This document shows positions 17,512-49,524 of a stretch of 64,000 bases of DNA, piece after piece. Position 1 is the stretch's first letter. Each line of letters begins with the position of its first letter. Made by a program: the position numbers and the translations under genes. This DNA comes from a bacterium (GTDB lineage Bacteria > Hinthialibacterota > Hinthialibacteria > H5-UNCL2): assembly GCA_015075175.1 (NCBI GenBank), contig JABTUV010000007.1, forward strand, positions 62,001 through 126,000, written 5' to 3'. A model generated the notes under the pieces. It was not told the origin of the DNA and searched no databases. It worked only from the letters and a program-made list of their open reading frames with translations.

Positions 17512-17625
17512 GTGCCTTTCCAAGGAAAGTGGTTGCCAATAGAGAAAAACCGAGTCCTCCAGTAGCCGGTACTCCGGCGTATCGAGAGGACGGCTCCGGC
17601 GCCACGACTTTTCTTGAAACGGCAC
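17512..17625. mobile_element. MITE-like element carrying hairpin B, copy 1
   Basis: The 114-base element is bounded by GTGCCTTTC (17512-17520) and GAAACGGCAC (17616-17625), which are near-perfect terminal inverted repeats. In the centre is hairpin B: GTCCTC, AGTAG, the inner stem CCGG-TACT-CCGG and CGTATCGAGAGGAC. The same structure with the same ends occurs at 24815-24926. There is no coding capacity, so any movement would need a transposase in trans. Confidence 0.65.
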
Positions 17626-17655
17626 TGGTCCATCATCCTTACGAGGTGCAAAGCC

Positions 17656-18933
17656 ATGACTCTCAGCATCCCCCGCAGCGGAGCCTTCCCGCAGGTCCTG
17701 CCCATGCGCCGGCAGGCTGAAGTGATTTACGAACTCCTGCGCGAGCGCCTGGCGACCGTGCTCCCTCGCGCCATGCGCGAGAACGGCATCGACGCCTGGC
17801 TCATCCTCTGCCAGGAGGACAATCCCGACCCCGTCTTCGCCAGCATGATTCCCATGGACACCTGGACCCCGATTCTCCAGGTCATGGTCTTCTTCGACCG
17901 CGGCGGCGACGAGATCGAGCGCTTCAACATCTCCGGCACGGCGACGCGGGACCTTTTCCAGCGGCCCTATACCGGCCAGGTCGAGGCCGAGCAATGGAAA
18001 CTGCTCCTGCAATTGATCGAGGAGCGCGATCCCAAACAGATCGGCATCAACATCGGCAGCGTCCAGTGGGCCGCCGGCGGCCTGACGTATAATCTTCACA
18101 AGCAGGTGCTGGAGCACCTTCCGAGAAAGTACCACAAGCGTTTGGTCTCCGCCGAACCGGCGTGCACCTTCTGGCTGGAGGCCTTTACCGACAAGGAGTT
18201 GGAGGTCTACCGCAGCGTGGTCGCGCTCGCCCACGCCATCATCGCCGACACGTTTTCCCCCCGCGCCATCGTGCCCGGCGTGACCACCTGCGAGGACCTG
18301 CGCTGGCATTATTGGCAGCTCTGCGCCGACCGCGGCCTGGAGGTCTCCTTCCTGCCCTTCTTCAACATCCGCCGCGGTCCGGAAAACCGCGCCCGCTACG
18401 GGCCGGACGACAAGGTCATCCGCCGCGGCGATCTCGTCCACTGCGACGTCGGCATCCGCTACCTCCGCATGGACAGCGACCATCAGCAATGGGTTTACAT
18501 CCGCCGCCAGGGCGAAACCGAGCCGCCCGAGGGCATCAGGGAACTCCTGCGGCAGAACAACCGTCTGCAGGACGTCTTCATGAGCGAGTTCAAACTGGGA
18601 CGCACCGGCAACCAGATGCTGAAGACCATGCTGGCACGCGCCAAACGCGAAGGCATTCCCGGCCCCAAGATCTACTCGCACTCGCTCGGTCATCTCCTGC
18701 ACGAGCCGGGACCGCTCATCGGCCTGCCCTGGGAGCAGAAGGTCTGCCCCGGCCGCGGCGACGTCAAACTCGTGTACAACAGTTGCTTCACCATGGAGCT
18801 GTCGATCACCTCCACCATCCCCGAATGGAACGACGAGGAGCTCCGCCTGAGCACGGAAGAGGACGTGATGTTCACCAAAGACGGCGGCTGCCAGGTCATC
18901 GACGGCCGCCAGGTCGAATTCTATCTGATTTAG
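17656..18933 (+). CDS. M24 family metallopeptidase, paralogue 2
   Basis: A 425-residue paralogue of the preceding gene. The ATG at 17656 is preferred (GAGGTG seven bases upstream) over the ATG 14 codons earlier, which would begin inside the repeat element. It has IDAWLILCQEDNPDPVF in the creatinase-like domain and all five metal ligands (CDVGIRYLRMDSD, YSHSLGHLLHEPGP, TMELSI, TEEDVMFT). The C-terminus VIDGRQVEFYLI matches the family signature. Tandem placement indicates local duplication followed by divergence, probably giving different peptide specificities. Confidence 0.86.
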   Translation: MTLSIPRSGAFPQVLPMRRQAEVIYELLRERLATVLPRAMRENGIDAWLILCQEDNPDPVFASMIPMDTWTPILQVMVFFDRGGDEIERFNISGTATRDLFQRPYTGQVEAEQWKLLLQLIEERDPKQIGINIGSVQWAAGGLTYNLHKQVLEHLPRKYHKRLVSAEPACTFWLEAFTDKELEVYRSVVALAHAIIADTFSPRAIVPGVTTCEDLRWHYWQLCADRGLEVSFLPFFNIRRGPENRARYGPDDKVIRRGDLVHCDVGIRYLRMDSDHQQWVYIRRQGETEPPEGIRELLRQNNRLQDVFMSEFKLGRTGNQMLKTMLARAKREGIPGPKIYSHSLGHLLHEPGPLIGLPWEQKVCPGRGDVKLVYNSCFTMELSITSTIPEWNDEELRLSTEEDVMFTKDGGCQVIDGRQVEFYLI

Positions 18934-18937
18934 TGCC

Positions 18938-19073
18938 CGGAGTACAAACTTCTATTTGCAAACAGGCTCAAGCCTGTACTCCGGAGTACAAACTTTAGTT
19001 TGCTAATATGACAAGCGCACCGGAGTACAAACTTTAGTTTGTTATTCCAATAAGCTAAAGCTTGTACTCCGGG
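18938..19073. repeat. Dispersed GGAGTACAAACTT repeats (two hairpins)
   Basis: Hairpins begin with CGGAGTACAAACTT and end with AAGCCTGTACTCCG or AAGCTTGTACTCCGG (18938-18982 and 19019-19072). A half copy lies between them, and a related copy is at 55722-55798. The long arms pair almost fully. The array separates an M24 gene from the phosphoesterase lipoprotein gene. Confidence 0.7.
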
Positions 19074-19091
19074 ATAGGACAAGGGGGAACC

Positions 19092-20942
19092 ATGCGCATC
19101 GCCATACTCTGCCTCGCCCTCTGCGCCGCCCTGTGCGGCTGCCAGAGCCGCCAGAGCGTCTGGACGCCCGACCCGGACCTGTTCCGCGGCGGCGTCGTGC
19201 CCTGGACCCACGAGAACTTCCAGAACGATCCCGACGACTTTCAGTTCGCCATCGTCACCGATCGCACCGGCGGCCACCGCCCCGGCGTCTTTTCCAGCGC
19301 CATGCCCAAGCTCAACCTCCTCCAACCCGAGTTCGTCATGAGCGTCGGCGATCAGATCGAGGGTTACACGGAAAACTCGCGCGAAATGACCGAGATGTGG
19401 CGCGAGTTCGACGCCCTCGTCAACTCGCTCTCCATGCCCTACTTCCGCGTCGCCGGCAATCACGACATCAGCAATCCGACCATGGAGGCGTTCTGGAAGC
19501 AGCGCTTCGGCAATCCATACTATCATTTCATCTACAAGAACGTGCTCTTTCTGTGCATCGACACCGAGGATCCGCCCGACACGTCCATCAGTCCGGCGCA
19601 GCGTGAGTATTTCCGCAGGGTTCTGGAGGCGAACCCGAACGTCCGCTGGACGCTGCTCTTCATGCACAAGCCCATGTGGGCGGAAGCAAACGCCAAAGGC
19701 TGGCAGGAGTTCGAGGCCCTCTTGGCGGGCCGCAACTACACCGTCTTCGCCGGCCATACTCACGATTATTTGAAATACGTGCGCAACGACCGCAAGTACA
19801 TCGTTTTGGCCACGACCGGCGGCGGCAGCCAGTTGCGCGGCGACAACTACGGCGAGTTCGACCATCTCGTCTGGGTGACCATGAAGGACGACGGCCCCCG
19901 CCTTGCCAATCTCATGCTGGAGGGCATCCGCGACGAAAACATTCGCACCACGGAGGACGTGGCGCTGCTCAATCCCATATTGAGCGGAAACGCCATCGTG
20001 CACGATCCCGTATATTTGGACGGCGAGCGCTTCGGTTCGGCTCGCACCGCGCTGCGCCTTTCCAACCGCGCCGGCATCCCCATGGTCGTGAAGGGACGCG
20101 CGCGCCCGCATCACGCCCTGCGCGTGGAACCCGATGAGGTCGCCTTCACCGTGCCGCCCGGCGCCGACCGCGAGATTCCCATCGAGTTCGCCGTCCAGCC
20201 GCCCATCCTGCGCACCCAAATGGCGCCGCTCGATTACGCGCTCTCCATCAGCTACGAACGCGAGGGCCGCCCGCCTCTGGTCGTCGAGCGAACCGAGACG
20301 ATCATCGTGGACCGCCTCCATCCCTGCCCGCGCGCGACAGCACCCGTCGCCGTAGACGGCGATCTCGCCGATTGGCCCGAGCTTCCCATCGACGTGACTG
20401 CGCCCGCCCAGATTTACCGCCGCGGAGACTGGAGCGGCCCTGATGACGCCTCCTTGCGCTTCGCCGCGCGTCACGACGACGCGTACCTCTATATCGCCGT
20501 CGCGGTGCACGAGGACCGCGTCATTCGCCGCCGTGGACGGGCGACCTACGAGCAGGACTCCGTCGCCGTCTGGTTGGACGCGCGGCCCGATCCCGCCCGC
20601 TCGCAAAGCCGCTCCGGATGGTACGAGCGCAACCGCGACTTCATTTCCCTGATCGTCGCGCCCAAGGTTGAAGAAACGGATATGCAGATCATGGACCCGG
20701 GCGCGCTGCCCGAGGGCATCCGCTGTGCCTCTGTGAAAACCAGCGACGGGTATGCCTTCGAGGCTGCCATTCCCGCGTCGGTCCTCAACGATCGCCAGGG
20801 CGGACCATGGAAGGCCTTCCGCCTCAACGTCGGCGTCTACGACACGGATGTTCCTGATGGCTCCTACGGCTCCATCTGGTGGCAGCCGCGCTGGGAGACC
20901 GACGCCAACGTCACCGGCTCGGGTACGTTCGTGCGCAAGTGA
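19092..20942 (+). CDS. Metallophosphoesterase lipoprotein with C-terminal CBM9-like domain
   Basis: A 616-residue protein whose ATG at 19092 follows AAGGGGG. The N-terminus is a lipoprotein signal with lipobox LCGC and acylated C17. Residues about 45-260 form a calcineurin-like phosphoesterase domain (FAIVTDRTGG, SVGDQIEG, VAGNHDIS, FMHKPMW, FAGHTHDY). Residues about 435-616 (VDGDLADWPELP, DDAYLYIAVAVHEDRV, QDSVAVWLDARPDP) resemble the CBM9-like carbohydrate-binding domain of secreted enzymes. It is probably a lipid-anchored phosphatase or phosphodiesterase on the cell surface or periplasmic face, acting on a glycan-linked substrate. Confidence 0.85.
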   Translation: MRIAILCLALCAALCGCQSRQSVWTPDPDLFRGGVVPWTHENFQNDPDDFQFAIVTDRTGGHRPGVFSSAMPKLNLLQPEFVMSVGDQIEGYTENSREMTEMWREFDALVNSLSMPYFRVAGNHDISNPTMEAFWKQRFGNPYYHFIYKNVLFLCIDTEDPPDTSISPAQREYFRRVLEANPNVRWTLLFMHKPMWAEANAKGWQEFEALLAGRNYTVFAGHTHDYLKYVRNDRKYIVLATTGGGSQLRGDNYGEFDHLVWVTMKDDGPRLANLMLEGIRDENIRTTEDVALLNPILSGNAIVHDPVYLDGERFGSARTALRLSNRAGIPMVVKGRARPHHALRVEPDEVAFTVPPGADREIPIEFAVQPPILRTQMAPLDYALSISYEREGRPPLVVERTETIIVDRLHPCPRATAPVAVDGDLADWPELPIDVTAPAQIYRRGDWSGPDDASLRFAARHDDAYLYIAVAVHEDRVIRRRGRATYEQDSVAVWLDARPDPARSQSRSGWYERNRDFISLIVAPKVEETDMQIMDPGALPEGIRCASVKTSDGYAFEAAIPASVLNDRQGGPWKAFRLNVGVYDTDVPDGSYGSIWWQPRWETDANVTGSGTFVRK

Positions 20943-20988
20943 ATTTCAGCGATTCTCCAGTGGGGCGCTCGCGAGAAAGCAAACCCGA

Positions 20989-21028
20989 GTCCTCGAGTAG
21001 TCCGCCCCGGCGGACGTATCGAGAGGAC
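20989..21028 (+). repeat. Dispersed hairpin element B
   Basis: GTCCTCGAGTAG (20989-21000), inner stem TCCGCC-CC-GGCGGA (21001-21014) and CGTATCGAGAGGAC (21015-21028). The outer arms pair GTCC with GGAC and TCGA with TCGA. The inner stem differs in sequence from other copies but keeps pairing. This copy lacks the terminal repeats of the 17.5 and 24.8 kb copies. Confidence 0.75.
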
Positions 21029-21078
21029 GACCTGATCCGGAACGCCTTGCCCAAGTGAGCATGGAAGACGAGAAAACT

Positions 21079-22344
21079 ATGATAGCTTCCCCCACTACCT
21101 TTCCGCGCATCCTCTCCATGCGCGAACGCTGCGAGCTTCATAACCGTATTTTGCGCAGGCGCCTGGACGCGCTCCTGCCCGCGGTGATGCGCGAATGCGG
21201 CTTCGACATGTGGCTCGTCATCTGCAACGAGGACAACTGGGACCCCGTCCTGCCTACCCTCCTTCCCATGGACACCTGGACGCCCATCCTGCAGATGTTC
21301 GTCTTCTATGATCGCGGCGAGGGAGGCGTCGAGCGCATTTCGATCTCTCGCACCAACACGTTTGATTACTATGATAAACCTTATACGGTGCATTATCCCT
21401 GGCAGCAGTGGCCGTGGCTGCGCGAAGTCATCGAGGCTCGCGACCCCAAACGCATCGCCATCAACCAGGGCGAGACCATCTGGGCCGCAGACGGCCTTTC
21501 AGCCACGCACAAGGAAAAACTGCTGGCAACGCTCCCGAAGAAGTATGCGCAGCGGCTCTCCTCCGGGGAGGACCTCTGCCGCCGCTGGATGGAGACGCTC
21601 ATCCCCGAGGAGATGGAGCTCTATCCCCACGTGGTGTCCGTCGCCCACGCCCTCCTGCGCGAGATCTTCTCGCGCCGCGTGATCACGCCCGGCGTGACGA
21701 CCCTCGCCGACTTGCGCTGGGCCTATTGGCAGATGTGCAACGACCGCGGGTTGGAGGTCTCCTTCTGTCCGTTTTTCTACCTTGCGCGCAGGGAGAGCGA
21801 AAAGAAGAGCCATCCCGAGGGCGACGCGACCATCCGCCGCGGCGACGTGGTGTACTGTGACGTGGGCATCAAGTATCTCGGTTTAATCACAGATACGAAA
21901 GAATGCGCTTACGTGTTGCGCGAAGGCGAGCATGACGCCCCGGAGGGACTCAGGCGCCTGCTGGCCGAGACCAACCGCCTGCAGGACATCTATTGCCGGC
22001 AGTTTGTCGCGGGACGCACGGGCAACGAGATGCTCCGTTCCGGCCTGGAGGCCGCGCGCGCCGCCGGCGTCAACAACCCCCGCATCTATTCTCACTCTTG
22101 CGGCCATCTCCTGCACGAACCCGGCCCGTTGATCGGCCATCCGCTCAATCAGGAGAATTGGCCCGGCCGCGGCGACGTGCCGCTCAACTATGATACCAGT
22201 TTCGTGTGTGAGATTTCCGCCGACGGCGTCGTGCCCGAGTGGGACGGCCAGAGCCTGCGACTGCCGACGGAAGAGCAGATTCTGTTCACGCGCGAAGGCA
22301 CGAGCTTCATCGACGGCCGCCAGACGGAGTTCTATCTCATCTAG
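21079..22344 (+). CDS. M24 family metallopeptidase, paralogue 3
   Basis: A third paralogue of about 421 residues. Of three in-frame starts (GTG 21055, ATG 21061, ATG 21079), the last aligns best with the ends of paralogues 1 and 2; none has a strong ribosome site. It has the creatinase-like FDMWLVICNEDNWDPV and the metal ligands in CDVGIKYLGLITD, YSHSCGHLLHEPGP, FVCEIS and TEEQILFT. The C-terminus is FIDGRQTEFYLI. The three genes span 6 kb with only a phosphoesterase gene and repeats between. Confidence 0.85.
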   Translation: MIASPTTFPRILSMRERCELHNRILRRRLDALLPAVMRECGFDMWLVICNEDNWDPVLPTLLPMDTWTPILQMFVFYDRGEGGVERISISRTNTFDYYDKPYTVHYPWQQWPWLREVIEARDPKRIAINQGETIWAADGLSATHKEKLLATLPKKYAQRLSSGEDLCRRWMETLIPEEMELYPHVVSVAHALLREIFSRRVITPGVTTLADLRWAYWQMCNDRGLEVSFCPFFYLARRESEKKSHPEGDATIRRGDVVYCDVGIKYLGLITDTKECAYVLREGEHDAPEGLRRLLAETNRLQDIYCRQFVAGRTGNEMLRSGLEAARAAGVNNPRIYSHSCGHLLHEPGPLIGHPLNQENWPGRGDVPLNYDTSFVCEISADGVVPEWDGQSLRLPTEEQILFTREGTSFIDGRQTEFYLI

Positions 22345-22366
22345 CTCGGCATCCCGCTGCGTCCGT

Positions 22367-22416
22367 CATAGGTCCCATAGGTCCCATAAGTCCCATGGGT
22401 CCCATTCGTCCTATGG
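22367..22416. repeat. Short tandem repeat of GGTCCCATA
   Basis: Five imperfect copies of a 9-10 base unit (GGTCCCATA, AGTCCCATG, GGTCCCATT and similar) lie between convergent genes. The TAG stop of the M48 peptidase gene (minus strand, 22413-22411) is inside the last copy. Confidence 0.7.
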
Positions 22417-24096
22417 GCGCTCCCTCTGCCGTCCGCCCTCCGCCTCTCTCGCGGTCTCTGCCAGAATTATCTGCATCGTCTCCAGTTCTCCCCCGTCGCA
22501 CCACAACGCGCGGCACTCGGGATTGCGGCAGCGGTCGACGACCACGCGCGTCAATTGCGTGTGGAAGCTGGCGATCATGATGGATTGGCAGAGCGGGCAG
22601 ACCAGCGAGGCGTCGCCCTCTTTGAGCAGAACGTCGCGCTCTTGCGCGCGCGCGCGCCACAAGCGCGCCGTCTCGATTTCTTCTCGGGAAAATGCGCGGT
22701 CGTCGCGCGTCAATACCCGTTCCAGCACGCCCGCGGGAAGCAGATAGCCGTGGCAGAAGGCGCAGCGGAGCACCGGCGCGCCTTCGTACTTGGCCGCGAC
22801 CAGGGAGACCTTGCAGCGCGGGCAGGCCCGGCCCGCCACGCGCCCGGCTACGCGCTCATGCAGAAGTGGCAAAAGCGTCGGCTCGTCGGCGGCCCGTTTC
22901 ATCTCCTTGTCCGGATTGACGATCCACGCCCGCGGTGACAGCAGGCCCAGCGCCAGCATCTGTGACGGCGTGTAGGGTCCCGCCCATTCTCCGTCCTTCT
23001 TGACGTAATAGTCTCGCGGCTCCGGCGCAGGCGGACCCTCCCGCGCGCGCGCCTCCGACTTCTCCCCCGCCGGCAGCTCCGCCCTTGCCCACGCCAGAAG
23101 CCGCCGGATGCGCTCCGCAATAGGCGGATGCGTGCTGAACACCTCCGCCACCACGCCCGAGTGCTCGTCCAGCCTGAAGATGTCCGGGTTGAGGATGAAG
23201 AGTGAGTTGAAGCTCTGCGGAATATCCAGGGCCCCGCGATGGCGGCGTGAAATCTTGCCCAGCGCCTCGGCCAGGGCCAGCGGATCCTTGCACATCCTGA
23301 CTGCCGCAGCATCCGCCATGTATTCGCGTCCGCGCGACAGCGCCATCGCCAACAGGCGCATCACGAGCACTTGCAGCGAAGCGACCAGCCAGACGAGAAA
23401 CGCGGCCAGCCCAACGCCGCCGCGATGCCGCCCATAGGCCCGCGGCCGATGCTCCAGCGCCGCCTTCATGCTCGCCGCCGTGGCCTCAAACGGCGCCGTC
23501 AGCGAAGCAACCGTCGTCGCCAGCGACGAATCCTCGTGCACGAGATGCGCCGCCTCGTGCGCCACCACCGCCGACAACTCCTGCCGGTCCAGTCTTGAGA
23601 GCAGCCCCTCGGTCGCCCCGATGGCCGCGCGGCCCTCCCCATCCGCCATGGAAAAGGTGTTGCTGCCCGTGCTGGCGAGAACGACGGCTCGAATCGGCCG
23701 GATGCCGGTCGCCGCCTCGGCCTCGTGCACGATATTGATGAAGCGCGCGTGATATTCATCCTTGGGATCAGCCGGCGCGGCCTTTACGATGGAAAGCAAA
23801 GAGTCCAGCTCGCGGCTGCGCGCCATCTGATAGTGCAGGAAGGCCACGAACGCGCCGCACAGCGACAGGAGGCCGTTCAGCGACCAGAAGTGGCGGGCGA
23901 TGTAGCGGCTGACGGCGCCCAAAACCTGCGTGCCGTGGTCCGGCGCTCCCACCGCCAGCGCCAGCGCTGCAACGAACGCGAGCATGTTAAAGAACACCAC
24001 GTAGAGCACGACCAGCAGGAGCAGCAGCCGCCGGCTGGCGCGCCGCGAGCGCTCGCGCGCCTCGTAAACCGTCTCCTTCGGCAGCGGCGCAAGCAC
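22411..24096 (-). CDS. M48 family (HtpX-like) membrane metallopeptidase with GYF and zinc-ribbon domains
   Basis: A 561-residue protein. Two N-terminal membrane segments lie at about 23-50 and 70-90. The M48 zinc motif HEAAH is at 180-184, with the third ligand in SRGREYMADAAAV near 270, and a further hydrophobic hairpin lies at about 220-250. After the protease domain there is a GYF_2-like domain (DGEWAGPYTPSQMLALGLLS) and two zinc ribbons (CPRCKVSLVAAKYEG...CAFC, and CPLCQSIM...CRNPEC). HtpX-type proteases act in membrane protein quality control; the added domains suggest a substrate-recognition role. The lemA-like gene lies 19 bases upstream. Confidence 0.87.
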   Translation of the reverse strand: MLAPLPKETVYEARERSRRASRRLLLLLVVLYVVFFNMLAFVAALALAVGAPDHGTQVLGAVSRYIARHFWSLNGLLSLCGAFVAFLHYQMARSRELDSLLSIVKAAPADPKDEYHARFINIVHEAEAATGIRPIRAVVLASTGSNTFSMADGEGRAAIGATEGLLSRLDRQELSAVVAHEAAHLVHEDSSLATTVASLTAPFEATAASMKAALEHRPRAYGRHRGGVGLAAFLVWLVASLQVLVMRLLAMALSRGREYMADAAAVRMCKDPLALAEALGKISRRHRGALDIPQSFNSLFILNPDIFRLDEHSGVVAEVFSTHPPIAERIRRLLAWARAELPAGEKSEARAREGPPAPEPRDYYVKKDGEWAGPYTPSQMLALGLLSPRAWIVNPDKEMKRAADEPTLLPLLHERVAGRVAGRACPRCKVSLVAAKYEGAPVLRCAFCHGYLLPAGVLERVLTRDDRAFSREEIETARLWRARAQERDVLLKEGDASLVCPLCQSIMIASFHTQLTRVVVDRCRNPECRALWCDGGELETMQIILAETAREAEGGRQRERP

Positions 24097-24115
24097 CGGC
24101 CGGACCTCCGCGCGT

Positions 24116-24676
24116 CTAGAACTTCACCTGCGGCACAGCCTTCTCCGCCTCGGCGATCTGGAAATACGGCCGCACGGAGAAGCCCGTCATTCCCGCCACG
24201 ATGTTGGACGGAAACCGTTGCACCAGCGTGTTGTAGTTCGCCGTCACGTCGTTGTAGTGCCCGCGGCTGTAGGAAATCCGGTTCTCCGTCGACGTCAGCT
24301 CCTCCTGCAGCTGCATGGCGTTCTGGTTCGCCTTCAGGTCGGGATAGTTCTCCCATACCGCCAGCAGGCGCCCGAGCAGTCCCGATATTTCCCCCTCGGC
24401 TTTCATGCGCTCGGGCAGGTTGGTCGCCCCCGTCGCCCGCGCCCGCGCCGCCACGACCGCCTCCAGCGTGCCACGCTCGTGTTGCATGTAGCCCTTCACC
24501 GTCTCCACCAGGTTGGGGATCAGATCGCTGCGCCGTTTCAACTGCACGTCGATCTGGCTCCACGAGTTGTCCACTTCCACGCGATAGCCGACCAGCTTGT
24601 TGTAGACCGCGATCACGTACAGGACAACGACCACCGCGCCGCCGACGAGTACCGCCAGGGTAATGATGAAACCCAT
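24116..24676 (-). CDS. lemA: LemA family protein
   Basis: A 186-residue protein starting at 24676, with GGGAGG eight bases upstream. One N-terminal membrane helix (FIITLAVLVGGAVVVVLYVI) is followed by the helical LemA domain, including YNKLVGYRVEVDNSWSQIDVQLKRR, RRSDLIPNLVETVKGY and NYNTLVQRFPSNIVAG. LemA proteins accompany HtpX-type proteases in many bacteria, as here. The molecular role is not established. The open frame continues 39 codons upstream, but those precede the ribosome site. Confidence 0.92.
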   Translation of the reverse strand: MGFIITLAVLVGGAVVVVLYVIAVYNKLVGYRVEVDNSWSQIDVQLKRRSDLIPNLVETVKGYMQHERGTLEAVVAARARATGATNLPERMKAEGEISGLLGRLLAVWENYPDLKANQNAMQLQEELTSTENRISYSRGHYNDVTANYNTLVQRFPSNIVAGMTGFSVRPYFQIAEAEKAVPQVKF

Positions 24677-24814
24677 CGAGAAACCTCCCGCGCGAAAGAT
24701 TCGGCTCTCAACGAGAAGACGAAGGCAGGATACGTTGGTGAGAAAGAAATCCAAGCGGAAATGGACGCCGACCGCGTTTTCCGGTCCATGCAAAGCGCAA
24801 TACCCGCGATGCTA

Positions 24815-24926
24815 GTGCCGTTTCCCAAAAAACAGTTGCGAGAAAGGAGAAACCGAGTCCGGCAGCAGCGGTACTCCGCGTATCGAGAGGACGACCCAAT
24901 CGCTGCAACTTTTCTTGAAACGGCAC
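24815..24926. mobile_element. MITE-like element carrying hairpin B, copy 2
   Basis: The 112-base element has ends GTGCCGTTTC (24815-24824) and GAAACGGCAC (24917-24926), a perfect 10-bp terminal inverted repeat. A second pair, GTTGC (24835-24839) with GCAAC (24904-24908), lies inside. The core hairpin has the inner stem CGG-TACT-CCG and the standard CGTATCGAGAGGAC. No obvious target duplication is seen. Confidence 0.68.
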
Positions 24927-25037
24927 CAGATCGGCCATTCATTGCCTGACAACGAGACGCCGTACTTGCGCGGCGTACTGTGCCTGCGCCCGTCCACCCA
25001 TGCCGAGTGTTTCATGACCGCCATAGTATTACGCGCG

Positions 25038-25817: not shown

Positions 25818-25834
25818 CTACCGACTCCTTCCCG

Positions 25835-25956
25835 GCTCGCGCAGAGCCGCAGAGAACGCAGAGATAATATAGTCGAAGCTCGCGCAGAGCCGCAGAGAAC
25901 GCAGAGATAATATAGTCGAAGCTCGCGCAGAGCCGCAGAGAACGCAGAGATAATAT
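25835..25956. repeat. Three direct 43-bp repeats
   Basis: Three near-identical 43-base units begin at 25835, 25878 and 25921, each containing CGCAGAGCCGCAGAGAACG then ATAATATAGTCGAAG. The third is cut short after TAATAT. They are homologous, in opposite orientation, to the array at 26064-26345. Confidence 0.85.
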
Positions 25957-26063
25957 TTTCATGTCGTGGGCGGATGGGAACAAACAAAGGGATAACATGG
26001 TAGATAATCTCATGGTTTCTGTGAACGGCAAGGTCCCTTTCTGGATCTCATGATATCATCTCC

Positions 26064-26345
26064 GCGCCTCTGCGCGACCTATAACCCTCTATTCCTCTGC
26101 GCCTCTGCGCCTCTGCGCGACCTATAACCCTATTCCTCTGCGCCCTCTGCGCCTCTGCCGACCTATAACCCTCTATTCCCTCCGCGCCCTCTGCGCCTCT
26201 GCGCGCCCTATAACCCTCTATTCCCTCCGCGCCCTCTGCGCCTCTGCGCGAGCCTCGACTATATTCCCTCCGCGCCCTCCGCGCCTCCGCGCGAGCCTCG
26301 ACTATATTCCCTCCGCGCCCTCTGCGCCTCTGCGCGAGCTTCTCC
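26064..26345. repeat. Seven inverted-orientation copies of the 43-bp repeat
   Basis: About seven units read CCCTCCGCGCCCTCTGCGCC then TCTGCGCG, ending in either GAGCCTCGACTATATT or ACCTATAACCCTCTATT. The first ending is the reverse complement of the 25.8 kb unit. Two subtypes in one array suggest stepwise growth. With the upstream array it forms a large potential cruciform between the two deaminase genes. The remainder of the 530-base gap (25957-26063) shows nothing else recognisable. Confidence 0.8.
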
Positions 26346-26347
26346 CC

Positions 26348-28738: not shown

Positions 28739-28893
28739 CGAATCGAGTCCTCCCTGCGTGCTCGTCGTCAACGCAGCAGCATAACGGAGCGCCGGCACAA
28801 TCTCAATACTTCCTTTGTTGACGCCTACCAATGAACTCCTGCGCGCCCTCGTCCGCCGTCTTCCGCGTCCCCTGCCCGGACGCCGAGAATCCC

Positions 28894-28922: not shown

Positions 28923-28968
28923 CAACCCCGTAGTTGCGCAGCGTGCCGCGTTTTCGGGGGCCTCCATC

Positions 28969-29250: not shown

Positions 29251-29262
29251 GAGGCCACGCCC

Positions 29263-31785: not shown

Positions 31786-32222
31786 GTCCGGGACGGCCGA
31801 CGCGCGACAGTCACCGATTCTCATCGTAATCTCAATCGTAATCTAGCACGATTTCATCGTAATCGATTATGATTACGATTCGGGAGAAAAGAAAATCCGA
31901 GTCCTCGAGTAGCGGCGCGCTGGGAAACCTACTTGGGATGCGAGATACAGCTTTGCGCCGCGTATCGAGAGGACGGCATGGACGCGAGCAGGCCGCCTTT
32001 GGAGCGGCTTTGATCGCATCCTCTGCGCGTGAGTCGAAGACTCGAAACGGAGCGTCCCTCCCTTTGCAGGCGCACCATACCACCTCCCCGACCGCCCTGA
32101 GCAGGATGGCCTGAAGCGCGCTCAGCACGAACATTCCAGCTGGAAACCTCCTTCGCTTCAGGCCATCCGTGTGGAAGGGCGACGTGTATTGCGGCGACGC
32201 CCGCCCAAGTCTCCGCCGGAAT
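31786..32222. other. Repeat-filled gap between convergent znuB and cardiolipin synthase genes
   Basis: Three repeat types and no gene. At 31824-31881, CGTAATC occurs repeatedly in direct and inverted form (CGTAATC-GATTAT-GATTACG). At 31901-31974 is hairpin B with the longest inner region: stem CGGCGC (31913-31918) with GCGCCG (31955-31960). At 32104-32118 and 32154-32168 is a perfect 15-bp inverted repeat (GGATGGCCTGAAGCG) around a CCAGCTGG palindrome. Any could terminate transcription. Confidence 0.65.
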
Positions 32223-33638: not shown

Positions 33639-33947
33639 GAGTTCTTCTCCCTCCCGGCGACGCTCGGCGTAAGCCGCCTTCCACCGGGTTCCATGATACC
33701 AGGACTCGTCCCCTCTCCCTCGGCGAGTCTGGTCCTCTCCTCGCCGGCGAGTCTGGTCCCTCTCCCTCGGCGAGTCTGGTCCCCTCTCCCTCGGGAGAGG
33801 GTTAGGGTGAGGGGGATCCTGGGGAGAGCGCGCTGCATCGACGCGCCGCGCTGCCGCCCACCTTGCGCGGTTTGACAATCCTCTGAATAAGGGGCACAAT
33901 AAGCCATTGTTGCATTCACGACAAGCGGGCAGTGGGGAGCAGACCGC
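33639..33947. repeat. REP-like CCCTCTCCC repeats in a 309-base gap
   Basis: From about 33712 to 33815 there are four imperfect copies of a unit with CCCTCTCCCTCGGCGAGTC and a final CCCTCTCCCTCGGGAGAGGG hairpin. Related arrays lie at 49792-49918 and 57104-57216. The gap separates the divergent cls and addB genes. No promoter boxes stood out. Confidence 0.65.
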
Positions 33948-40981: not shown

Positions 40982-40986
40982 GCGAC

Positions 40987-41140
40987 GTAGCGCCGGCGTC
41001 CCGCCGGCTTGCGTGGGGACGCCCCCTCCCCACGCTTCGGGGGCGTAGCATGGATCTGACAGGTGCGACGATCCTGCGCCGGCGCCGCGAAGCGTGTCGG
41101 CAACATGCCGACACGCGAGCCGGCACGATGCCGGCGCTAC
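40987..41140. repeat. Composite palindromic element with 11-bp terminal inverted repeats
   Basis: GTAGCGCCGGC (40987-40997) is repeated inverted as GCCGGCGCTAC (41130-41140). Inside are further hairpins: GCCGGC-type pairs, a GGGGACGCCCCCTCCCC stretch and GTGTCGGCAACATGCCGACAC. The block starts six bases after the addA stop and ends 60 bases before the next gene. It could act as a terminator. Confidence 0.7.
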
Positions 41141-41199
41141 CAGGTACACGCTACATACCCCTTTGCCGCCTGCCCGCGATTCTGTTAGCCTGCCCCACC

Positions 41200-41763: not shown

Positions 41764-42461
41764 ACGGCCCCCTTCTGTCCATCGTCATGCCCATTTACAA
41801 CGAGGAGCGCCTCCTGCCCGAGGTGCTGGCGCGCGTCCGCGCCATCAACTACCGGCCCATCCAACTGGTGCTCGTGGACGACGCTTCCCGCGACGGTACC
41901 GCCGCCATTTTGAAGCAAGAGGAGGGCAAGCCCGACACAGTCGTGCTTCGCCACGACGTGAACCAGGGCAAGGGAGCCGCCATTCGCACCGGCCTGCAGC
42001 ACGCGACCGGCGAGATCATCATCATTCAGGATGCCGACCTCGAATACAATCCCGAGGACATTCCGGTCGTCATCAAGCCGATCCTGGAGGGCAAGGCCGA
42101 TGTGGCCTACGGCTCGCGCTTCCTGGGCCGAATCGAGAACATGGCCCTGCCCAACCGCGTCGCCAATTACCTCCTGGCCTGGCTGGTCACGCTCCTCTTC
42201 GGCCAGCGCATCACCGACGAAGCGACCGCCTACAAGGCCTTTCGCCGGAGCGTGTTGGAGGGGTTGGAGCTCACCTGCCGCCGCTTCGAGTTCTGCCCCG
42301 AGTTCACCGGCAAAGTGCTGGTGCGCGGCCATCGCATCGTGGAGACGCCCGTGACGTTCCGGGCGCGCACCTTCGAGCAGGGCAAGAAGATCGGCTGGCG
42401 GGACTTCTTCATCGCGGTCTACACGCTCTTCAGAATCCGGCTGGGGGAGCGGCGGAAGTGA
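41760..42461 (+). CDS. Family 2 glycosyltransferase (DPM1-like)
   Basis: A 233-residue cytoplasmic enzyme starting at GTG 41760. It has the GT-A motifs [49 protein letters not shown] and the metal-binding [13 protein letters not shown], then AYGSRFLG. The C-terminal part ([20 protein letters not shown], then [12 protein letters not shown]) matches polyprenol-phosphate mannosyl- or glucosyltransferases that lack membrane helices. It probably makes a lipid-linked sugar in the same pathway as its operon neighbours. It overlaps the FAD oxidoreductase gene by four bases. Confidence 0.88.
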
Positions 42462-43840
42462 CGCGCACGCTGATCCTGGGCGGCGGAGTGGCAGGCTTGG
42501 CGGCGGCGCTCTCCCACGCCCGCGCCGGAGACGACGTGCTGCTTCTGGAAAAGGAGGACACCGTCGGCGGGCTGTGTCGCACGTTTCACTGGCACGACTG
42601 CTGGCTCGACCTGGGTCCGCACCGGCTCTTCACCCGCTATCCCGAGGTGCAGGCGCTGATCGAGGAGACCTGCGCCGGCCATCTGGTCGAGACGCGGCGC
42701 AAGAGCAGCCTGTGGCTGGGGGGCCGTTTCATCGACTATCCCACGCGCACGCGCCAGGTCGCCGCCGCCGTCGGTTGGCCGCGCGTCTTCCTTCTGGGCG
42801 GCAGCTTTTTCCTGGGCCGAATGTTCCCACGCCGTCGGATCGAGCTCTACCGGGACGTGATCGTCAACCAGTACGGAGCGGAGATGTACGAGTGGTTCTT
42901 CGCGCCTTACGCCCGCAAGACCTGGAGGATCGACCCCGAGTTGCTGTTGCGCGAGATGGCCGAGAAGCGCCTGCCCCCGCAGGGCTTCTGGCAGATGATC
43001 TCGGACCGCGCCACGGGCCGCGCGACCGGATATGTGCGCCACTTCCACTACCCTGACCGGGGGGTCGGACTGCTCTGCGACGGCCTCGCCGAGCGGGCGC
43101 AGGCAGCCGGCGCCCGTATCGTAACCTCAGTCGTTCCAACCCGCCTCCGCTTGGACGGCGCAAATGTTTCACGTGAAACATTTGTGGACCCGCGGGGCCG
43201 GGAGACGGAAACCGACGTGGATCGCGTCGTCTCCAGCATTCCTCTGGACGCCCTCCTGGAGCTTCTCGACCCGCCCGCGCCCGACGAAGTCCGCCAGGCG
43301 GCCCGACAACTGCCCTACTCGGGACTGGTCATCGTGTACGTACTCCTCAAACAGAGGATGCCGGCCGGCGACTGCTGGCTCTACTTTCCCGACCCCGAGC
43401 TGTGCTTCAATCGCGCCTACCTGCCGCAGAACTTCGCCCCCGGCCTGGCGCCGCCCCCCCGGACGGTACTGGTCCTGGAAGTACCCTGCCGGCCTGACGA
43501 GGAACTCTACCAAGCGTCCGACGAGGTCCTGAGGGAGCGCGTGGAGACCGACCTGGCCAAGGTCTGGAACGGCGGACAGGCCGCCGTCGCCGACTTTTGC
43601 GCCATCCGCCTGCCGCGCGTCTATCCGCTCTATACCCGCGACTACTTGCCGCGTTTGCGCGCCGTATTGGAGTACCTTTCCAGCATCGACAATCTCTTCA
43701 GCCTTGGCCGGCACGGGCTTTTCAGTTATAATAACAGCGACTTGGCGATCAAAATGGGCCTGGACGTGGTCGAGTATGCACATGCGCGAGACTGGTACGC
43801 TGGACAGGGGCGATACGATGACTATCGCATCATCGACTAG
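42458..43840 (+). CDS. FAD-dependent oxidoreductase (amine oxidase / UDP-galactopyranose mutase-like)
   Basis: A 460-residue flavoprotein starting at GTG 42458. The FAD-binding motif is [20 protein letters not shown], followed by [13 protein letters not shown] and a [13 protein letters not shown] segment reminiscent of UDP-galactopyranose mutase and protoporphyrinogen-oxidase-like proteins. The C-terminal [21 protein letters not shown] is the second FAD contact. The substrate is unknown; the operon suggests a lipid or lipid-linked sugar. The peptide NVSRETF near residue 238 is encoded by a parS site and looks like an insertion in a surface loop. Confidence 0.85.
43161..43184. other. parS centromere site (ParB-binding palindrome)
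   Basis: The 16-mer TGTTTCACGTGAAACA at 43165-43180 is an exact match to the bacterial parS consensus. It is extended by four more matched bases on each side to a perfect 24-bp palindrome. It lies inside the FAD oxidoreductase coding region in a frame giving NVSRETF, a typical parS-encoded peptide. ParB loads here and spreads to organise chromosome segregation. No parA or parB gene is in the window. Confidence 0.9.
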
Positions 43841-45255
43841 GCTCTTTTCGCGCGTGCTTCTGGTGGTTCCGCCGACGGGGCTGTACATCCGCGAGGACCG
43901 CTGCCAGACGCCGATCGAGAACCTGCACACGGTTTCGGCCCGCCCGCCCATCGACTTGCTTTACTGCGCCGCCATGTTTCAGGCGCAGGGCTGCGAGTGC
44001 CGGGTACGCGACTTCCCCGTCGAGGGCGGCGGATGGGACGCCTACCGCCGGGGGCTGGCGGACTTTCAGCCCGATCTCGTGATGCTCTCGATAACCTCGC
44101 CAGTTTCGCGGAAGACGCCAGAAGGCGGCCTCGGTCGCCAAAGAGGTTCTTCAAGGGTCGCGGTCGCCGCCAAGGCGCGCATTTCCACGCGCGCGACGTT
44201 GAGGCGCTGCAGAAGTATCCCGCGCTGGACTTCGCCCTGCGCGGCGAGTACGAGGAGACCTGCCGCGACCTGGTCTGGATCGCCGACCGTTCGAGCATCG
44301 CCGGGCTTACCTTTCGCAACGGGAGGGCGGGATCGTGCAGAATCCCATGCGCGAGTTCGTCGCCGGAGCTGGACGATCTTCCTTTCCCGCCCGCGACCTG
44401 ATCGACAACCGCCGTTACATTCGTCCTGACCTGGGCGTGCTGCAGACGACGCTCGTCACCGAGCGCGGTTGCCCCTACCAGTGCATCTACTGTCTGGCGC
44501 CGGTCTTCGGCACGCGCGTGCGCAAACGCAGCCGGAAAACGTCATCGCCGAAATCCGGGAGTGCGTGGAGAAGCACGCATCCGCGACTTTCTCTTTCGCT
44601 CCGATCTTTCACCGCCGACCGCGTGGGGTCAAAAACTCTGCGCCGCGCTGGCTGAGGCGAAGCTGGACATCCGCTGGTCCTGCAACAGCCGCGTGGACAA
44701 GATCAAAGAGGACCTGCTCATCACGATGAAGCAGGCCGGTTGCTGGCTGATCGCCTTCGGAGTTGAGAGCGGCAGTCCTGATCTCTTGGAGAAGATGAAG
44801 AAGGCCGCCGACCTGGACGACGCCCGGCGCGCCATGGCCGTGTGCCGCTCGGTGGGCATCAAGTCGAGCATCTATATTCTGATCGGCCTGCCGTGGGAGA
44901 CGGAGGAGACGTTTCGCGCGGGCGTGGATTTCGCCATCGAACTTGACCCGGATTACATCGAGTTCTTTTACGTGTATCCGTTTGCGGGGACGGAATTGCG
45001 GGAGATCGTGGAGCGGGAGGGGCTGCTGGCGCCGGGCGGCGATCCGGTCGCGCGGCCTACGACCGGCCGTCGAATGCGGGACTGTATCTGACGCTGGAGC
45101 GGCTGGAACCTTTGCGGCGGCGGGCGCTGCGGGCCTTCTACCTGCGCCCGCGCTACATTGCGCGCACGCTTCTCTCCAACCCGTCGCCGCGCGTGATGTG
45201 GAACTATCTGCGCTACGGCACGCGGCAACTGGTCGATCTCCTGTCGCACCGGTGA
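43818..45255 (+). CDS. Cobalamin-binding radical SAM protein (several frameshifts)
   Basis: The start ATG at 43818 lies within the end of the preceding gene. The N-terminal B12-binding domain (VLLVVPPTGLYIRED, then RPPIDLLYCAAMFQAQGCECRVRDFP) precedes the radical SAM core TLVTERGCPYQCIYC with the CxxxCxxC cluster motif. The frame changes near 44098, 44330-44380, 44525, 44580-44630 and 45050, but the pieces run in family order: SIYILIGLPWETEETFR, then DYIEFFYVYPFAGTELR, then RFYLRPRYIAR-like at the end. About 479 residues. Related proteins methylate or rearrange lipids and antibiotics. With its neighbours it points to modification of a membrane lipid or glycolipid. Confidence 0.8.
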
Positions 45256-46359
45256 GATCAAGGCGCCCGGGCAATTGCGAGAAAAGGGAATCCGAGTTCT
45301 CGAGTAGCGTCCGAGAAAGAAAAATCCGAGTTCTCGGTAGCGTCCGTAAGGACGCGTATCGAGAGAACGGGCCTAGCAGGGTGCCCCGCGACGACAGGCC
45401 GCCGTGACCTCTCGATACGGCCCCGAAGTTACCTGTCCTTTCTCATGGAGGCGCGGCGGCGGGGCCTACTCGAGGACGCGGCTTGGATTTTCTGCCAGTC
45501 GCACAAGGCAGTGCGGCGGCGGGGCCTACTCGAGGACACGGCTTGATTTTCCTGCCAGTCGCACAAGGCAGTGCGGCGGCGGGGCCTACCTCGAGGACGC
45601 GGCTTGGGTTTTCTGCCAGTCGCACAAAGCAGTGCGGCGGCGGGGCTACCTCGAGGACACGGCTCTGGTTTCGCGGAGAGCATGATCCAGCTTCTGGAGT
45701 CGTCCGTTGAAGTAAGAACTGAGTTCTCGAGTAGCGTCCGAGAAAGAAAACTCCGAGCTTCTCGAGTAGCGTCCGCAAGGACGCGTATCGAGAGAACGGG
45801 CCTAGCAGGGTGCCCCGCGACGACAGGCCGCCGTGACCTCTCGATACGGCCCCGAAGTTACCTGTCCTTTCTCATGGAGGCGCGGCGGCGGGGCCTACTC
45901 GAGGACACGGCTTGGATTTTCTGCCAGTCGCACAAGGCAGTGCGGCGGCAGGGGCCTCTCGAGGACGCGGCTTGGATTTTCTGCCAGTCGCACAAGGCAA
46001 GTGCGGCGGCGGGCCCTCTCGAGGACGCGGCGGGTTTTCTGCCAGTCGCACAAGGCGGTGCGGCGGCGGGGCCTACTCGAGGACGCGGCTTGGTTTTCTG
46101 CCAGTCGCACAAGGCAGTGCGGCGGCGGGGCCCTACTCGAGGACAGAAACCTGGTTTTCGCGGAGAGCATGAATCCAGCTTCTGGAGTCGTCCGTTGAAG
46201 TAAGAATCCGAGTCTCGAGTAGCGTCCGAGAAAGAAAAATCCGAGTTCTCGAGTAGCGTCCGAGAAAGAAAAATCCGAGTTCTCGAGTAGCGTCCGCAAG
46301 GACGCGTATCGAGAAACGGCTTATAGCCGCGATCTTCCCTGAAAAGGCATCGACGCCTC
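45256..46359. repeat. Nested repeat array built from element B
   Basis: Two long blocks, about 45290-45717 and 45718-46205, are copies of each other. Each has element B (GTTCTCGAGTAG, stem CGTCC-GCAA-GGACG, CGTATCGAGAGAAC), a 100-base conserved spacer ending CCTTTCTCATGGAGGCGC, and then tandem 60-base units. The units begin GCGGCGGCGGGGCCTACTCG and contain TTTTCTGCCAGTCGCACAAG. There are four units in the first block and five in the second. A third element B lies at 46279-46318. Open frames crossing the array are by-products of the repeat. No gene is supported. Confidence 0.85.
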
Positions 46360-47375
46360 ATGCGTGAACGTCTCTCTCCCCGCGTATCTGTTCTTCTACC
46401 GGTCCACAATGCATCTGCTACACTATGCGAGGCGCTGGAGAGTCTTTTTGCGCAGACTCTCACGGATTTCGAAATCATCGCGGTAGAGAACGGCTCGCGG
46501 ACGGCTCGGCCGCGATGCTGGAAGACGCGGCGCGGCACGACCGCCGCTTGCGCGTCTTCCACATGCCGGAGGCCGATCTCGTGGCCGCGCTGAATTTTGG
46601 ACTGTCGCAATGTCGGGCTGACTTGATTGCCCGCATGGACGCCGACGACCGCTCCCGTCCCGAGCGGCTGGCGCGACAGGTCGCGCGGATGGACGCGCAA
46701 CCCGCCATCGACGCCTGCGGAACCTGCGTTGCGGTATTCAGAGCAACCGGCCCGCGCGCCGGTTATCGCGCCTATGAGCGCTGGATCAACGGCCTGCTCT
46801 CGCACGAGGCGATGCGCCGCGAGCGCTTCATCGAAAGTCCCATCCCGCATCCCTCGGCCATGTTTCGACGCACCTGGATTACGTCCATGCAGGGCTATCG
46901 CAATTGCGGCTGGGCCGAGGATTACGACCTGTGGTTACGGGGATTTTCCGCCGGCGCGGTGTTCGCCAAGTGCCCGGAAGTACTCCTGGATTGGCGCGAT
47001 CACGAGGGCAGATTGTCGCGGCGTCATGCCAGGTACGCGCAGGAGTCGTTCTTGCGCTGCAAGGCCCATCACTTAGCAATCGCCTTGGGCAAGGAGAGTC
47101 GGCCCATCGCGCTGTGGGGCGCCGGGCCCATCGGCAAGCGGCTGTTGCGTTGCCTGCGGGCGGAAGGCGTGACGCCCGCCGCCGTCGTGGACATCGATCC
47201 GAAGAAGATCGGCCGCACGCGCCAGGGCATTCCCGTAGTCGCGCCCGAAGCTCTGGCCAGTGGTGGATGGTTCGTCCTGACGGCGGCGATTCGGGCCGGC
47301 GCGCGTGGGGAGATCGTCGCCGCGCTGGGCGGGATGGGTTACGCGGAAGAATACGACTTTCTCTGTTGTGCGTAG
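46360..47375 (+). CDS. Family 2 glycosyltransferase with C-terminal nucleotide-binding-like domain (one frameshift)
   Basis: About 338 residues. The GT-A part has RVSVLLPVHNASATLCEALES, DFEIIAVENGS and, after a frameshift near 46495-46505, DGSAAMLEDAARHD, then LIARMDADDRSRPERL with the metal-binding DxD. The last 85 residues (PIALWGAGPIGKRLLRCL, AAVVDIDPKKIGRTRQGIPVV) form a Rossmann-like domain with a glycine-rich loop, resembling domains appended to sugar-modifying enzymes. It probably builds surface polysaccharide. Gene and repeat array abut at the 5' end, and no good ribosome site is seen. Confidence 0.83.
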
Positions 47376-49160
47376 TCAATAGTAGTGCCAGATGCCGGCG
47401 TAATCGTCGGGATTCTCGCCCAGTTCGGCCAGCCGAAGCAGATAGTCCAGGATGGGGACGTCGTCGCCCACGTAGGACTTGCATCGCACCACGTTTTTCT
47501 CCCAGGGATGAAACTCGTAAACGCGCGAGCCGTCGGGGCGGATGGAGATCAACTCGCGGTTCTGGCGCGCGCGAAGATAATGCTTGCCGAGGCCGGGCAG
47601 ATTATAGACGGCCTCGTCGGTGCGACGAGTACCGGGCAGGAGGCGGGCCTCCTCCTGCTGCTCCTGCAGGACGCGCGCAAGCGGGACGCGATAGCGGGCG
47701 GTTTCGGACTTGCCCTTGGGCGCGAAGGTGTAGTAGGGAGCGATGCCGCAGCGCCGCAGGAGCATGCGCAGGGCCGCAACCTCGAATCGGCGCGAGACGT
47801 AAAAGGTGTAGACCAACTGGTTGTACACCTCGATGCCGTGGGCACGCAGGCGGGCGACGGCGGCGACCAGTTCGGGCGTGACTTCGTAAGGGTGCTCGAC
47901 GTGGGTCATGAGGCAGAGTTCGCGCCGGCCTGGGACTCGCAGGCGCGCCAGCTGCGCCGCCAGCGCCTCGGTGATGCGCATGGGCATGGTTACCGGTACG
48001 CGGCTGCCGATGCGGATGAGATCAATGTGTGAAATGGCCGCCAGGCGGTCCAGGATGCGCCCCAGCAATTCGTCGGAGAGCGCCAGGGGATCGCCGCCGG
48101 TCACGAGCACCTCGCGCACGGCGGGATGCGCCTGGAACCAGCGAAAGGCGGTCTCCAGGCGCGCGCGCGAGGCCAGCGCGCCCGGCGCCATCGGCTCCTC
48201 GATCTGCCAGTTGCGCTGGCAGTAGACGCAAATTTGGGGACAGGCGTTGAAGGGCTTGAAAACTGCGATGGCGGGATAGCGGCGGGTGATCAAGTCCACC
48301 GGTGAGGTATCGCGCTCGCGCATAAAGTCCAGCCGACGGGCGCGATCGTCACGCAGGGCGGCCATCTCCGCGACGTAATCGGCGGGCGGCAGAACCTGGG
48401 CGCGGATGGCGCGGTCGCGGCCGGCCTCTGGGTCGTCATCGAACAGCGCAGCGTAGTAGGGAGTCACACCGAAGGGGACGCGATGTTCGACGGCGAGGCG
48501 GGCGGCCTGCAATTCCTGCGCGCGCAGGTTGGCCGCTTGCGCGAGGAGACCGGGATCGAGAAAAATGTGGCGGACGTGCCACTCCCAACTGCTCCAGTCG
48601 GTTTCACAACCGCCCAAGAGGGAGAGCACGCGCGCGCGCCGCGCGGCGCGGCGTTCCACCGCCTCGGGTGAGAGGCCGTCGGGGTAGCGCGCCAAGCGCT
48701 CTTGCACCCATTCCCATAGGCGGTCCATGGCTTCGGAACGCGCGCGGGCGGCCAGTCGGCCGCGCCCGGCGATGTCCACAGGCGACTTACGAAGGCCGCG
48801 CAGGGGAGCCTTGCCTTCCAGACCGCGAACCAGGTAGATCAACTCGGCGTAAAAGGCGGGCGACAGGTCGGGCCGGGGCACGCCGCGCGCCAGGTCCCAG
48901 AGCGCCTGGGGCACGCTGAAGCCGCTGAGCGCGGCGCTGCGGGCCAGCGTCAGGCTACGCAGCGCCCGCGCCGAGTCGCGGATGACGACGCGTCCGCCTA
49001 CTTCACGCGTCACCTGCCGCCCCGCCGCCAGGTGCTTGCGGGTGATGTAGGCGAAGAGTCGGCGGCGCACGGCGCCCAGGTTGGTGCACTGCGAGAGGTG
49101 CGACAGCAGCGGTTCAGCTTCACGCCGGAAGCGCTCGGCGTCGTAGTCGAGATCAAGCAT
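47376..49160 (-). CDS. KamA-family radical SAM protein (lysine 2,3-aminomutase homologue)
   Basis: About 594 residues from the ATG at 49160 (GAGGGGG five bases upstream; earlier starts at 49184 and 49205 are possible). The radical SAM motif is CPQICVYC in VFKPFNACPQICVYCQRNW. Downstream are EVLVTGGDPLALSDELL, RIGSRVPVTMPMRI and LMTHVEHPYEVTPE, all typical of KamA. The PLP-lysine region is hard to confirm: YTFAPKGKSETARYRVPL is a candidate. A 250-residue N-terminal extension distinguishes it from canonical lysine 2,3-aminomutase (about 420 residues). The reaction is unknown. Its stop is adjacent to the end of the convergent glycosyltransferase gene. Confidence 0.82.
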   Translation of the reverse strand: MLDLDYDAERFRREAEPLLSHLSQCTNLGAVRRRLFAYITRKHLAAGRQVTREVGGRVVIRDSARALRSLTLARSAALSGFSVPQALWDLARGVPRPDLSPAFYAELIYLVRGLEGKAPLRGLRKSPVDIAGRGRLAARARSEAMDRLWEWVQERLARYPDGLSPEAVERRAARRARVLSLLGGCETDWSSWEWHVRHIFLDPGLLAQAANLRAQELQAARLAVEHRVPFGVTPYYAALFDDDPEAGRDRAIRAQVLPPADYVAEMAALRDDRARRLDFMRERDTSPVDLITRRYPAIAVFKPFNACPQICVYCQRNWQIEEPMAPGALASRARLETAFRWFQAHPAVREVLVTGGDPLALSDELLGRILDRLAAISHIDLIRIGSRVPVTMPMRITEALAAQLARLRVPGRRELCLMTHVEHPYEVTPELVAAVARLRAHGIEVYNQLVYTFYVSRRFEVAALRMLLRRCGIAPYYTFAPKGKSETARYRVPLARVLQEQQEEARLLPGTRRTDEAVYNLPGLGKHYLRARQNRELISIRPDGSRVYEFHPWEKNVVRCKSYVGDDVPILDYLLRLAELGENPDDYAGIWHYY

Positions 49161-49365
49161 CCGCGCCCCCTCGACGGCCATTTCACTTGACAAGGCAACA
49201 ACCATAGAGAATCTCGCGCCTCGCAATCCGGGCCGCTTTCCGGCCTCGATAACCAGTTTAGTGGCGCGGGGACCTCATGGCAAAGGAAACCGGCGTGGGG
49301 AAAGTCGATTGTGGGCCGGCATAAGCGCAGGTACAGTGCTTGCCGAAAGGATGCTACCGGAAGGT

Positions 49366-49441
49366 TGGCGTCCCCAAGGGGATTTGAACCCCTGTTGCCG
49401 CCGTGAAAGGGCGGTGTCCTAGACCCCTAGACGATGGGGAC
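49366..49441 (-). tRNA. tRNA-Glu (UUC)
   Basis: Cloverleaf read on the minus strand: acceptor GTCCCCA pairs with TGGGGAC; anticodon stem CCGCC/GGCGG encloses loop CTTTCAC with anticodon TTC; the T-arm is CAGGGGTTCAAATCCCCTTG-like. The discriminator G is followed by an encoded CCA (49368-49366). Seventy-six bases including CCA. Confidence 0.95.
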
Positions 49442-49490
49442 GCGGAAATGTGCCTGTACTCGTCGGGAAGCGCCGCATCCAAGCCGCCCG

Positions 49491-49524
49491 GCCTCTCGAT
49501 ACGCGGACTACCGCTACTCGAGGA
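49491..49524 (-). repeat. Hairpin element B between two tRNA genes
   Basis: On the minus strand: GTCCTCGAGTAG, inner stem CGG-TAGT-CCG, then CGTATCGAGAGG. It sits between tRNA-Lys and tRNA-Glu, so a shared transcript would carry the hairpin. Confidence 0.7.

Follow-up and report, generated by a model that had tools for sequence, protein, structure and literature searches.

Why do hairpins of similar outline recur through a 64,000-nt stretch of a bacterial assembly, and what keeps their stems paired while the stem sequences change from copy to copy? The stretch (hereafter, the window) is taken from contig JABTUV010000007.1 of assembly GCA_015075175.1 (Hinthialibacterota; 4.98 Mb, 84% complete). 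An earlier note on this DNA described the hairpins and proposed that they are maintained or propagated in a folded form. Repetitive extragenic palindromic (REP) sequences are generally described as species-specific in sequence and tied to REP-associated tyrosine transposases (RAYTs). We consider it probable that the hairpins constitute a family resembling REPs and bacterial interspersed mosaic elements (BIMEs), i.e. short, non-coding, and non-autonomous, which is read as folded single-stranded DNA through a fixed frame, the apical stem being free.

Architecture and copy number of the hairpin family

Each element is an imperfect hairpin comprising a variable, paired outer arm, a fixed frame with a GTA/GTA internal loop containing GTAG, and a changeable apical stem-loop. 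From the outside in, the outer arm leads into a short helix bearing a 2-nt bulge (CTC.GA); then come the GTA/GTA internal loop and one G-C pair, with the inner stem and its loop at the top, so that the frame letters read CTCGA.GTA.G ... C.GTA.TCGAG. GTA is located in the internal loop, outside of which GA/TC and the outer arm are paired (helix 1, 100% of cells), and GTAG stands immediately 5′ of the inner stem.

The fixed frame CTCGAGTAG-(stem-loop)-CGTATCGAG with an interior of 2-32 nt gives 102 matches in the genome, whereas the reversed pattern gives 0. The 14-mer GAGTYCTCGAGTAG and its 3′ counterpart CGTATCGAGAGRAC occur 177 and 171 times, respectively, in the whole assembly, and both backward controls give 0. 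The strict conservation of GTAG is partly by construction, since copies were gathered with patterns containing it; nonetheless, the motif is real, because 177 matches face 0 in the control. A covariance model made from the genome's own copies (R2), which is dominated by a long class with interiors of 46-48 nt, gives 148 matches among 150 candidates scored, and nearly all those listed are ~80 nt long. These matches overlap little with the 102 short-interior copies, and the total is therefore roughly 250. The curated covariance models of Rfam gave no match to the family, and a literature search by motif sequence did not find it described. The family is real and abundant, REP-like in character, and apparently undescribed, and it combines a fixed frame with a free stem.

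Inner stems of the short class include CCGG-TACT-CCGG, CGG-TACT-CCG, GCCG-TCTG-CGGC, TCCGC-NNNN-GCGGA, CGTCC-GCAA-GGACG, and CGCC-GAA-GGCG, and those of the long class include CGGCGCG..CGCGCCG, CGGCCCG..CGGGCCG, and GCCCCG..CGGGGC. In 26 distinct copies, 99.7% of cells are paired, with changes on both sides in six pairs, compared with a mean of 91.8% for shuffled and 25-57% for slid versions; a structure shifted by one column, an unplanned negative control, gives 44% pairing. Pairing at 20 distinct inner ends is 0.80 (0.41 ± 0.06 when shuffled). The claim that the inner stems differ yet still pair is thus confirmed, and the outcome that the earlier note named as refuting it, stems pairing no more often than shuffled controls, is not what we found. 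The outer arm also covaries, as had been claimed: GTC/GAC occurs 71 times and GTT/AAC 20 times, and further arms are GCCGTG(T)C/GCACGGC, with GCCGCG/CGCGGC and (T)T/A variants. Stem changes are often wholesale, both arms being replaced, rather than base by base. G-T versus A-C mispairs are too rare to tell the folded strand.

Occurrence in other genomes

A covariance-model search of the genome and its relatives, as the earlier note had suggested, was productive only for the former; 13 other genomes of the same class yielded no convincing copies. Carriers were taken from an exact scan of named genomes and belong, among the matches listed, to Alphaproteobacteria, Actinomycetota, Gemmatimonadota, Flavobacteriia, and a planctomycete bin. 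Follow-up counts in 23 of them show the frame in multiple copies in a Naasia bin (67 at most, overlapping readings of single copies being counted separately), Sphingomonas (up to 31), Zimmermannella alba (21), a Gemmatimonadetes bin (20), Chryseobacterium aahli (16), Gulosibacter (7), and a Planctomycetaceae bin (6), with zero backward-control matches in 22 of the 23. The stems track the host base composition, as in ATTTTTGAAAAAAAT in Chryseobacterium, where the stems are AT-only, and CGCGAAGCG in Zimmermannella. Pairing at 39 distinct stem ends from other genomes is 0.795 versus 0.322 when shuffled (z = 11.4), and 18 cross-phylum 27-mers are 96.3% paired versus 80.4% when shuffled and 21-44% when slid. 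Among 385 other genomes, broadly sampled, just one has more than one match (six copies with AT-rich paired stems). The matches elsewhere in this sample are single and at chance level, and the family is therefore sporadic.

Selection for, or propagation via, a folded form is supported, because paired stems of unrelated sequence are found inside one frame both in the window genome and across phyla.

Viral spread was considered and rejected: nine IMG/VR stretches match the frame, but in three groups with unpaired interiors, and are attributed to chance. Plasmid spread, for which a single Sphingobium replicon came up with the Sphingomonas form, was also set aside. Separately, an array of frame-like hairpins in alternating orientation, with GTCATCGAGTAG / GTCACCGAGTAG outer arms, was observed in the 2.5-Mb genome G195 (L217, ~1380-1720).

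Placement and arrangement of the copies

Genes were predicted by a simple codon-bias method, and 178 of the 179 copies lie outside them. The intergenic regions that contain copies are convergent in 36 cases, co-directional in 55, and divergent in 11, showing avoidance of divergent promoters. In the co-directional gaps, the orientation relative to transcription is even (45 vs 39). Head-to-head pairs, commonly of one short and one long element, are frequent, and in 19 of 24 the two elements are separated by 44-47 nt; such pairs are also present in Sphingomonas and the planctomycete bin. Head-to-tail iteration is asymmetric, involving 5′ halves 36 times and 3′ halves 3 times, and the break is near the hairpin tip.

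In class A1, a copy occupies the center of a palindrome of 116-120 bp that has CTAG-type ends. These ends are seen only in units of this size, and the start of the unit coincides exactly with the TAG stop of the upstream gene in 6 of 13 cases. Another class, A2 (L145, L167, L172, L173, and others), is embedded in a larger unit of several hairpins, which has GAAAATCGG stems and ends resembling GGGACAGTC/GACTGTCCC.

Orthologous sites and insertion into loops

Comparison of orthologous sites between Sphingomonas species shows an entire head-to-head pair that one species has and another lacks (L094/L121; L078 vs L127 and L124). At a further site (L069/L104), the flanks are conserved and the stems are replaced by other paired stems.

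The positions of class E, a 36-nt sub-family with CCC/GGG arms, should be noted. In the sampled loci, all 18 class E elements are within another hairpin repeat, one of them with just the 5′ arm of the host remaining. At the internal loop they are next to TAG (5′ side) or within GTA (3′ side); others occupy an apical loop. Some of the 18 are in the loop of a GTAG repeat, GTAGTTGCGCAGCG^TGCTGCGC, for which 5 filled and 29 empty copies are observed in the same sample of the same genome; the two states define an inserted block of ~36 nt. Mobility of the hairpin family at the DNA level is well supported.

Besides the hairpin family itself, the genome has a second, more canonical GTAG repeat, GTAGTTGCGCAGCGTGCTGCGC, which is a class E target. 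It is located in the window at 42-63 (+), 28930-28951 (+), and ~59004-59025 (−), and 29 copies were counted in ~410 kb of sampled, partly overlapping DNA.

Copies in the window

The model R2 detects 11 copies in the window at E < 1e-4. All the dispersed copies that the earlier note had placed in the window are present, though its list lacked the long copies on the minus strand at 45.4 and 45.8 kb. The match at 3.2 kb, taken there for an ordinary copy, is actually a class E hairpin, GCGTCC-CCCGAGTAG-CCCAAAGGC-CGTATCGAGGG-G (3216..3251, +), inserted adjoining TAG at the internal loop of an older long-class host (~3206-3215 and 3252-3316, +), and the R2 match spans 3243-3320.

Three core hairpins on the plus strand, all detected by R2, follow at 17549..17596 (inner CCGG-TACT-CCGG, outer GTC/GAC), 20984..21033 (inner TCCGC-CCCG-GCGGA, outer GTC/GAC), and 24852..24897 (inner CGG-TACT-CCG). 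They share the frame, but not as uniformly as had been described, since the first has CTCCAGTAG and the 5′ arm of the third is degenerate (CGGCAGCAG). The first is enclosed in a palindromic class A1 unit of ~120 bp (17509-17628), and the third in a class A1 unit at 24812-24929, with a CTAG-type left end and inverted ends TAGTGCCGTTTC/GAAACGGCACC. The long-class hairpin at 31896..31979 (+; CGGCGC..long loop..GCGCCG, outer GTC/GAC) matches R2 with 92.5 bits, and the core hairpin at 49485..49530 (−; inner CGG-TAGT-CCG, R2) is situated between two tRNA genes.

The copies reported between 45.3 and 46.3 kb are present in a cluster that also contains extra 5′ halves. It begins with an iterated 5′ half, i.e. 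A-rich leader, outer arm, CTCGAGTAG, and CGTCC without a 3′ half (45279..45312, +). The core hairpin at 45325..45373 (+; inner CGTCC-GTAA-GGACG, outer GTT/AAC, R2) is head-to-head with a long-class hairpin, GCCCCG..CGGGGC, at 45399..45482 (−; GCCG(C/T)GTC-type outer arm, R2), next to which tandem long-class 5′ halves without 3′ halves extend over 45486..45665 (−; ~60-bp units, repeat families D2 and D3). The element at 45706..45802 (+; R2 match 45718-45802) consists of one 5′ half and the core hairpin CGTCC-GCAA-GGACG. Its head-to-head partner is a long-class hairpin at 45828..45911 (−; R2), beyond which are tandem long-class 5′ halves in 58-60-bp units (45915..46150, −). Two 5′ halves and another core hairpin CGTCC-GCAA-GGACG (46274-46322, R2) occupy 46207..46322 (+).

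Three related genes, probably paralogues, at 16125-17450, 17656-18933, and 21055-22344 are separated by hairpin copies (repeat families D1, D8, D9, D14, and D19). Other repeats in the window are a large inverted cluster built of 43-45 bp tandem units in which CTCTGCGCCTCTGCG is abundant (25835-26342; I1/D10/D18), and dispersed hairpin repeats CCCCCTCACCCT..CCCTCTCCC.GAGGGAGAGGG in 40-42 bp tandem units (49773-49918, 57076-57217, and 33788-33837; D4/I8/I16). A near-perfect 31-bp inverted repeat, GGAAAAATAGG..CCTATTTTTCC, with a 27-nt spacer (14804-14892; I11) perhaps represents the terminal repeats of a tyrosine-transposase element.

Comparison with known repeats and alternative explanations

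The nearest known systems are the GTAG-tagged REP, BIME, and REPIN repeats and REPtrons (PMC3733652, PMC8266576, PMC6006769). Common features are short extragenic hairpins in hundreds of copies, GTAG adjoining the stem, stem covariation, head-to-head dimers, avoidance of divergent promoters, and occasional nesting in palindromes; GT[AG]G located 0-2 nt 5′ of the hairpin foot, which characterizes GTAG REPs, is found here as well. However, GTAG is an unpaired terminal tag in GTAG REPs, whereas here it is within the internal loop of a longer hairpin, and the second fixed arm CGTATCGAG on the 3′ side is a further difference. REP sequences are not conserved between species, whereas one frame extends across phyla here. 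A REPtron contains a RAYT gene flanked by copies; no such gene was found here, and several carriers have no Y1 match. In "double foot" REPs (TnpA_REP subclass 2.4), the 5′ GT[AG]G is accompanied by a 3′ C[TC]AC, the reverse complement of the 5′ foot (PMC6006769). The present family likewise has conserved tetranucleotides on both sides of the hairpin, but the one on the 3′ side is CGTA, which is not complementary to GTAG. Class A1, a palindromic unit with CTAG-type ends around a core, resembles miniature inverted-repeat transposable elements with terminal inverted repeats; nevertheless, no parental or autonomous transposon with A1 ends was found, most core copies are without A1 ends, and a target duplication would be indistinguishable from the palindromic CTAG.

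The elements might simply be canonical GTAG REPs moved by a RAYT (TnpA_REP), for which GTAG is the usual guide tetranucleotide, the cognate RAYT acting in trans or having been lost. GTAG directly 5′ of the inner stem suits this explanation, as do the head-to-head dimers, extragenic position, and stem covariation; moreover, REPtrons are known to be lost (PMC3733652), and the window genome has two Y1-transposase (RAYT-like) genes in addition to the second GTAG repeat. However, these genes score 70 and 74 bits with the RAYT model, below the curated cut-off of 80 bits, and no hairpin copy is located within 1.5 kb (~5 kb in L184/L185) of either. The association that the earlier note suggested looking for, a RAYT gene with copies around it, was not found near any of the 19 Y1 matches examined in the window genome (its assembly being 84% complete) and the other carriers. 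A Y1 match is absent in 12 of 18 carrier genomes, including Sphingomonas AX6 (31 copies) and Zimmermannella (21 copies), in a search that was positive in known hosts such as E. coli. A RAYT is unlikely in those carriers, because they give no Y1 match though several hold 20 or more copies. Considering also that GTAG is enclosed in a longer hairpin and not at an unpaired end, we regard this explanation as unlikely for the family.

Convergence, in which the frame arose independently in other phyla, for example through different enzymes favoring one folded motif, seems quite improbable. The flanks do differ by group, being an A-rich leader in the window genome, CCGTTCG in Sphingomonas, and GTCACTT in Flavobacteriia. 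However, the groups have sixteen frame positions in common around a free interior, the families are multi-copy, the backward control is clean in 22 of 23 carriers, and the 385-genome sample gives only single matches at the level of chance, one six-copy genome excepted.

A role at the RNA level, as 3′ untranslated region stabilizers, terminators, or protein-binding RNA, is very improbable: the predicted RNA hairpins are stable (about −19 to −32 kcal/mol) and often downstream of genes, and the class A1 units starting at a TAG stop would fit, but the copies show no preferred orientation with respect to transcription, those in the window are not followed by a T-run, the distribution across phyla is sporadic, nested insertion is hard to account for, and Rfam has no match.

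Proposed mechanism and implications

The earlier note had allowed either a folded RNA or a folded single-stranded DNA form. Single-stranded DNA is favored, because there is no transcription orientation bias and class E is inserted at loop positions. In the reading as REP/BIME-like elements, recognition and joining of the element would take place on the folded single strand, probably at replication. A trans-acting enzyme would respond to the frame and to a stem being there, whatever its sequence, which would explain stems that drift or are swapped wholesale while still paired. The tandem 5′ halves could be slippage products formed when the copying strand halts near the hairpin tip.

Several points weigh against this reading. 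The mobilizing enzyme was not found in the window genome or the carriers. The window genome is without a close relative, and the orthologous-site comparison comes from Sphingomonas, where presence and absence could also be explained by loss. The loci from which class E was drawn had mostly been selected for other copies, and several of its composites have prefixes in common and may stem from a single composite by duplication rather than from independent insertions.

We tentatively suggest, with less confidence than the reading above, that these are trans-phylum mobile hairpins in which only the 16-20 nt frame is recognized and the stem is free, and that an enzyme other than a RAYT/Y1 transposase may insert them into the loops of other folded single strands. 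The nested copies and their empty counterparts fix the insertion unit to within a base or two. A frame that is identical across phyla around a freely replaced stem separates recognition from mere folding and provides a handle on the recognizing protein, and, given the carriers without a Y1 match, cultured Sphingomonas or Actinomycetota offer a direct test of REP-like spread in the absence of RAYTs.

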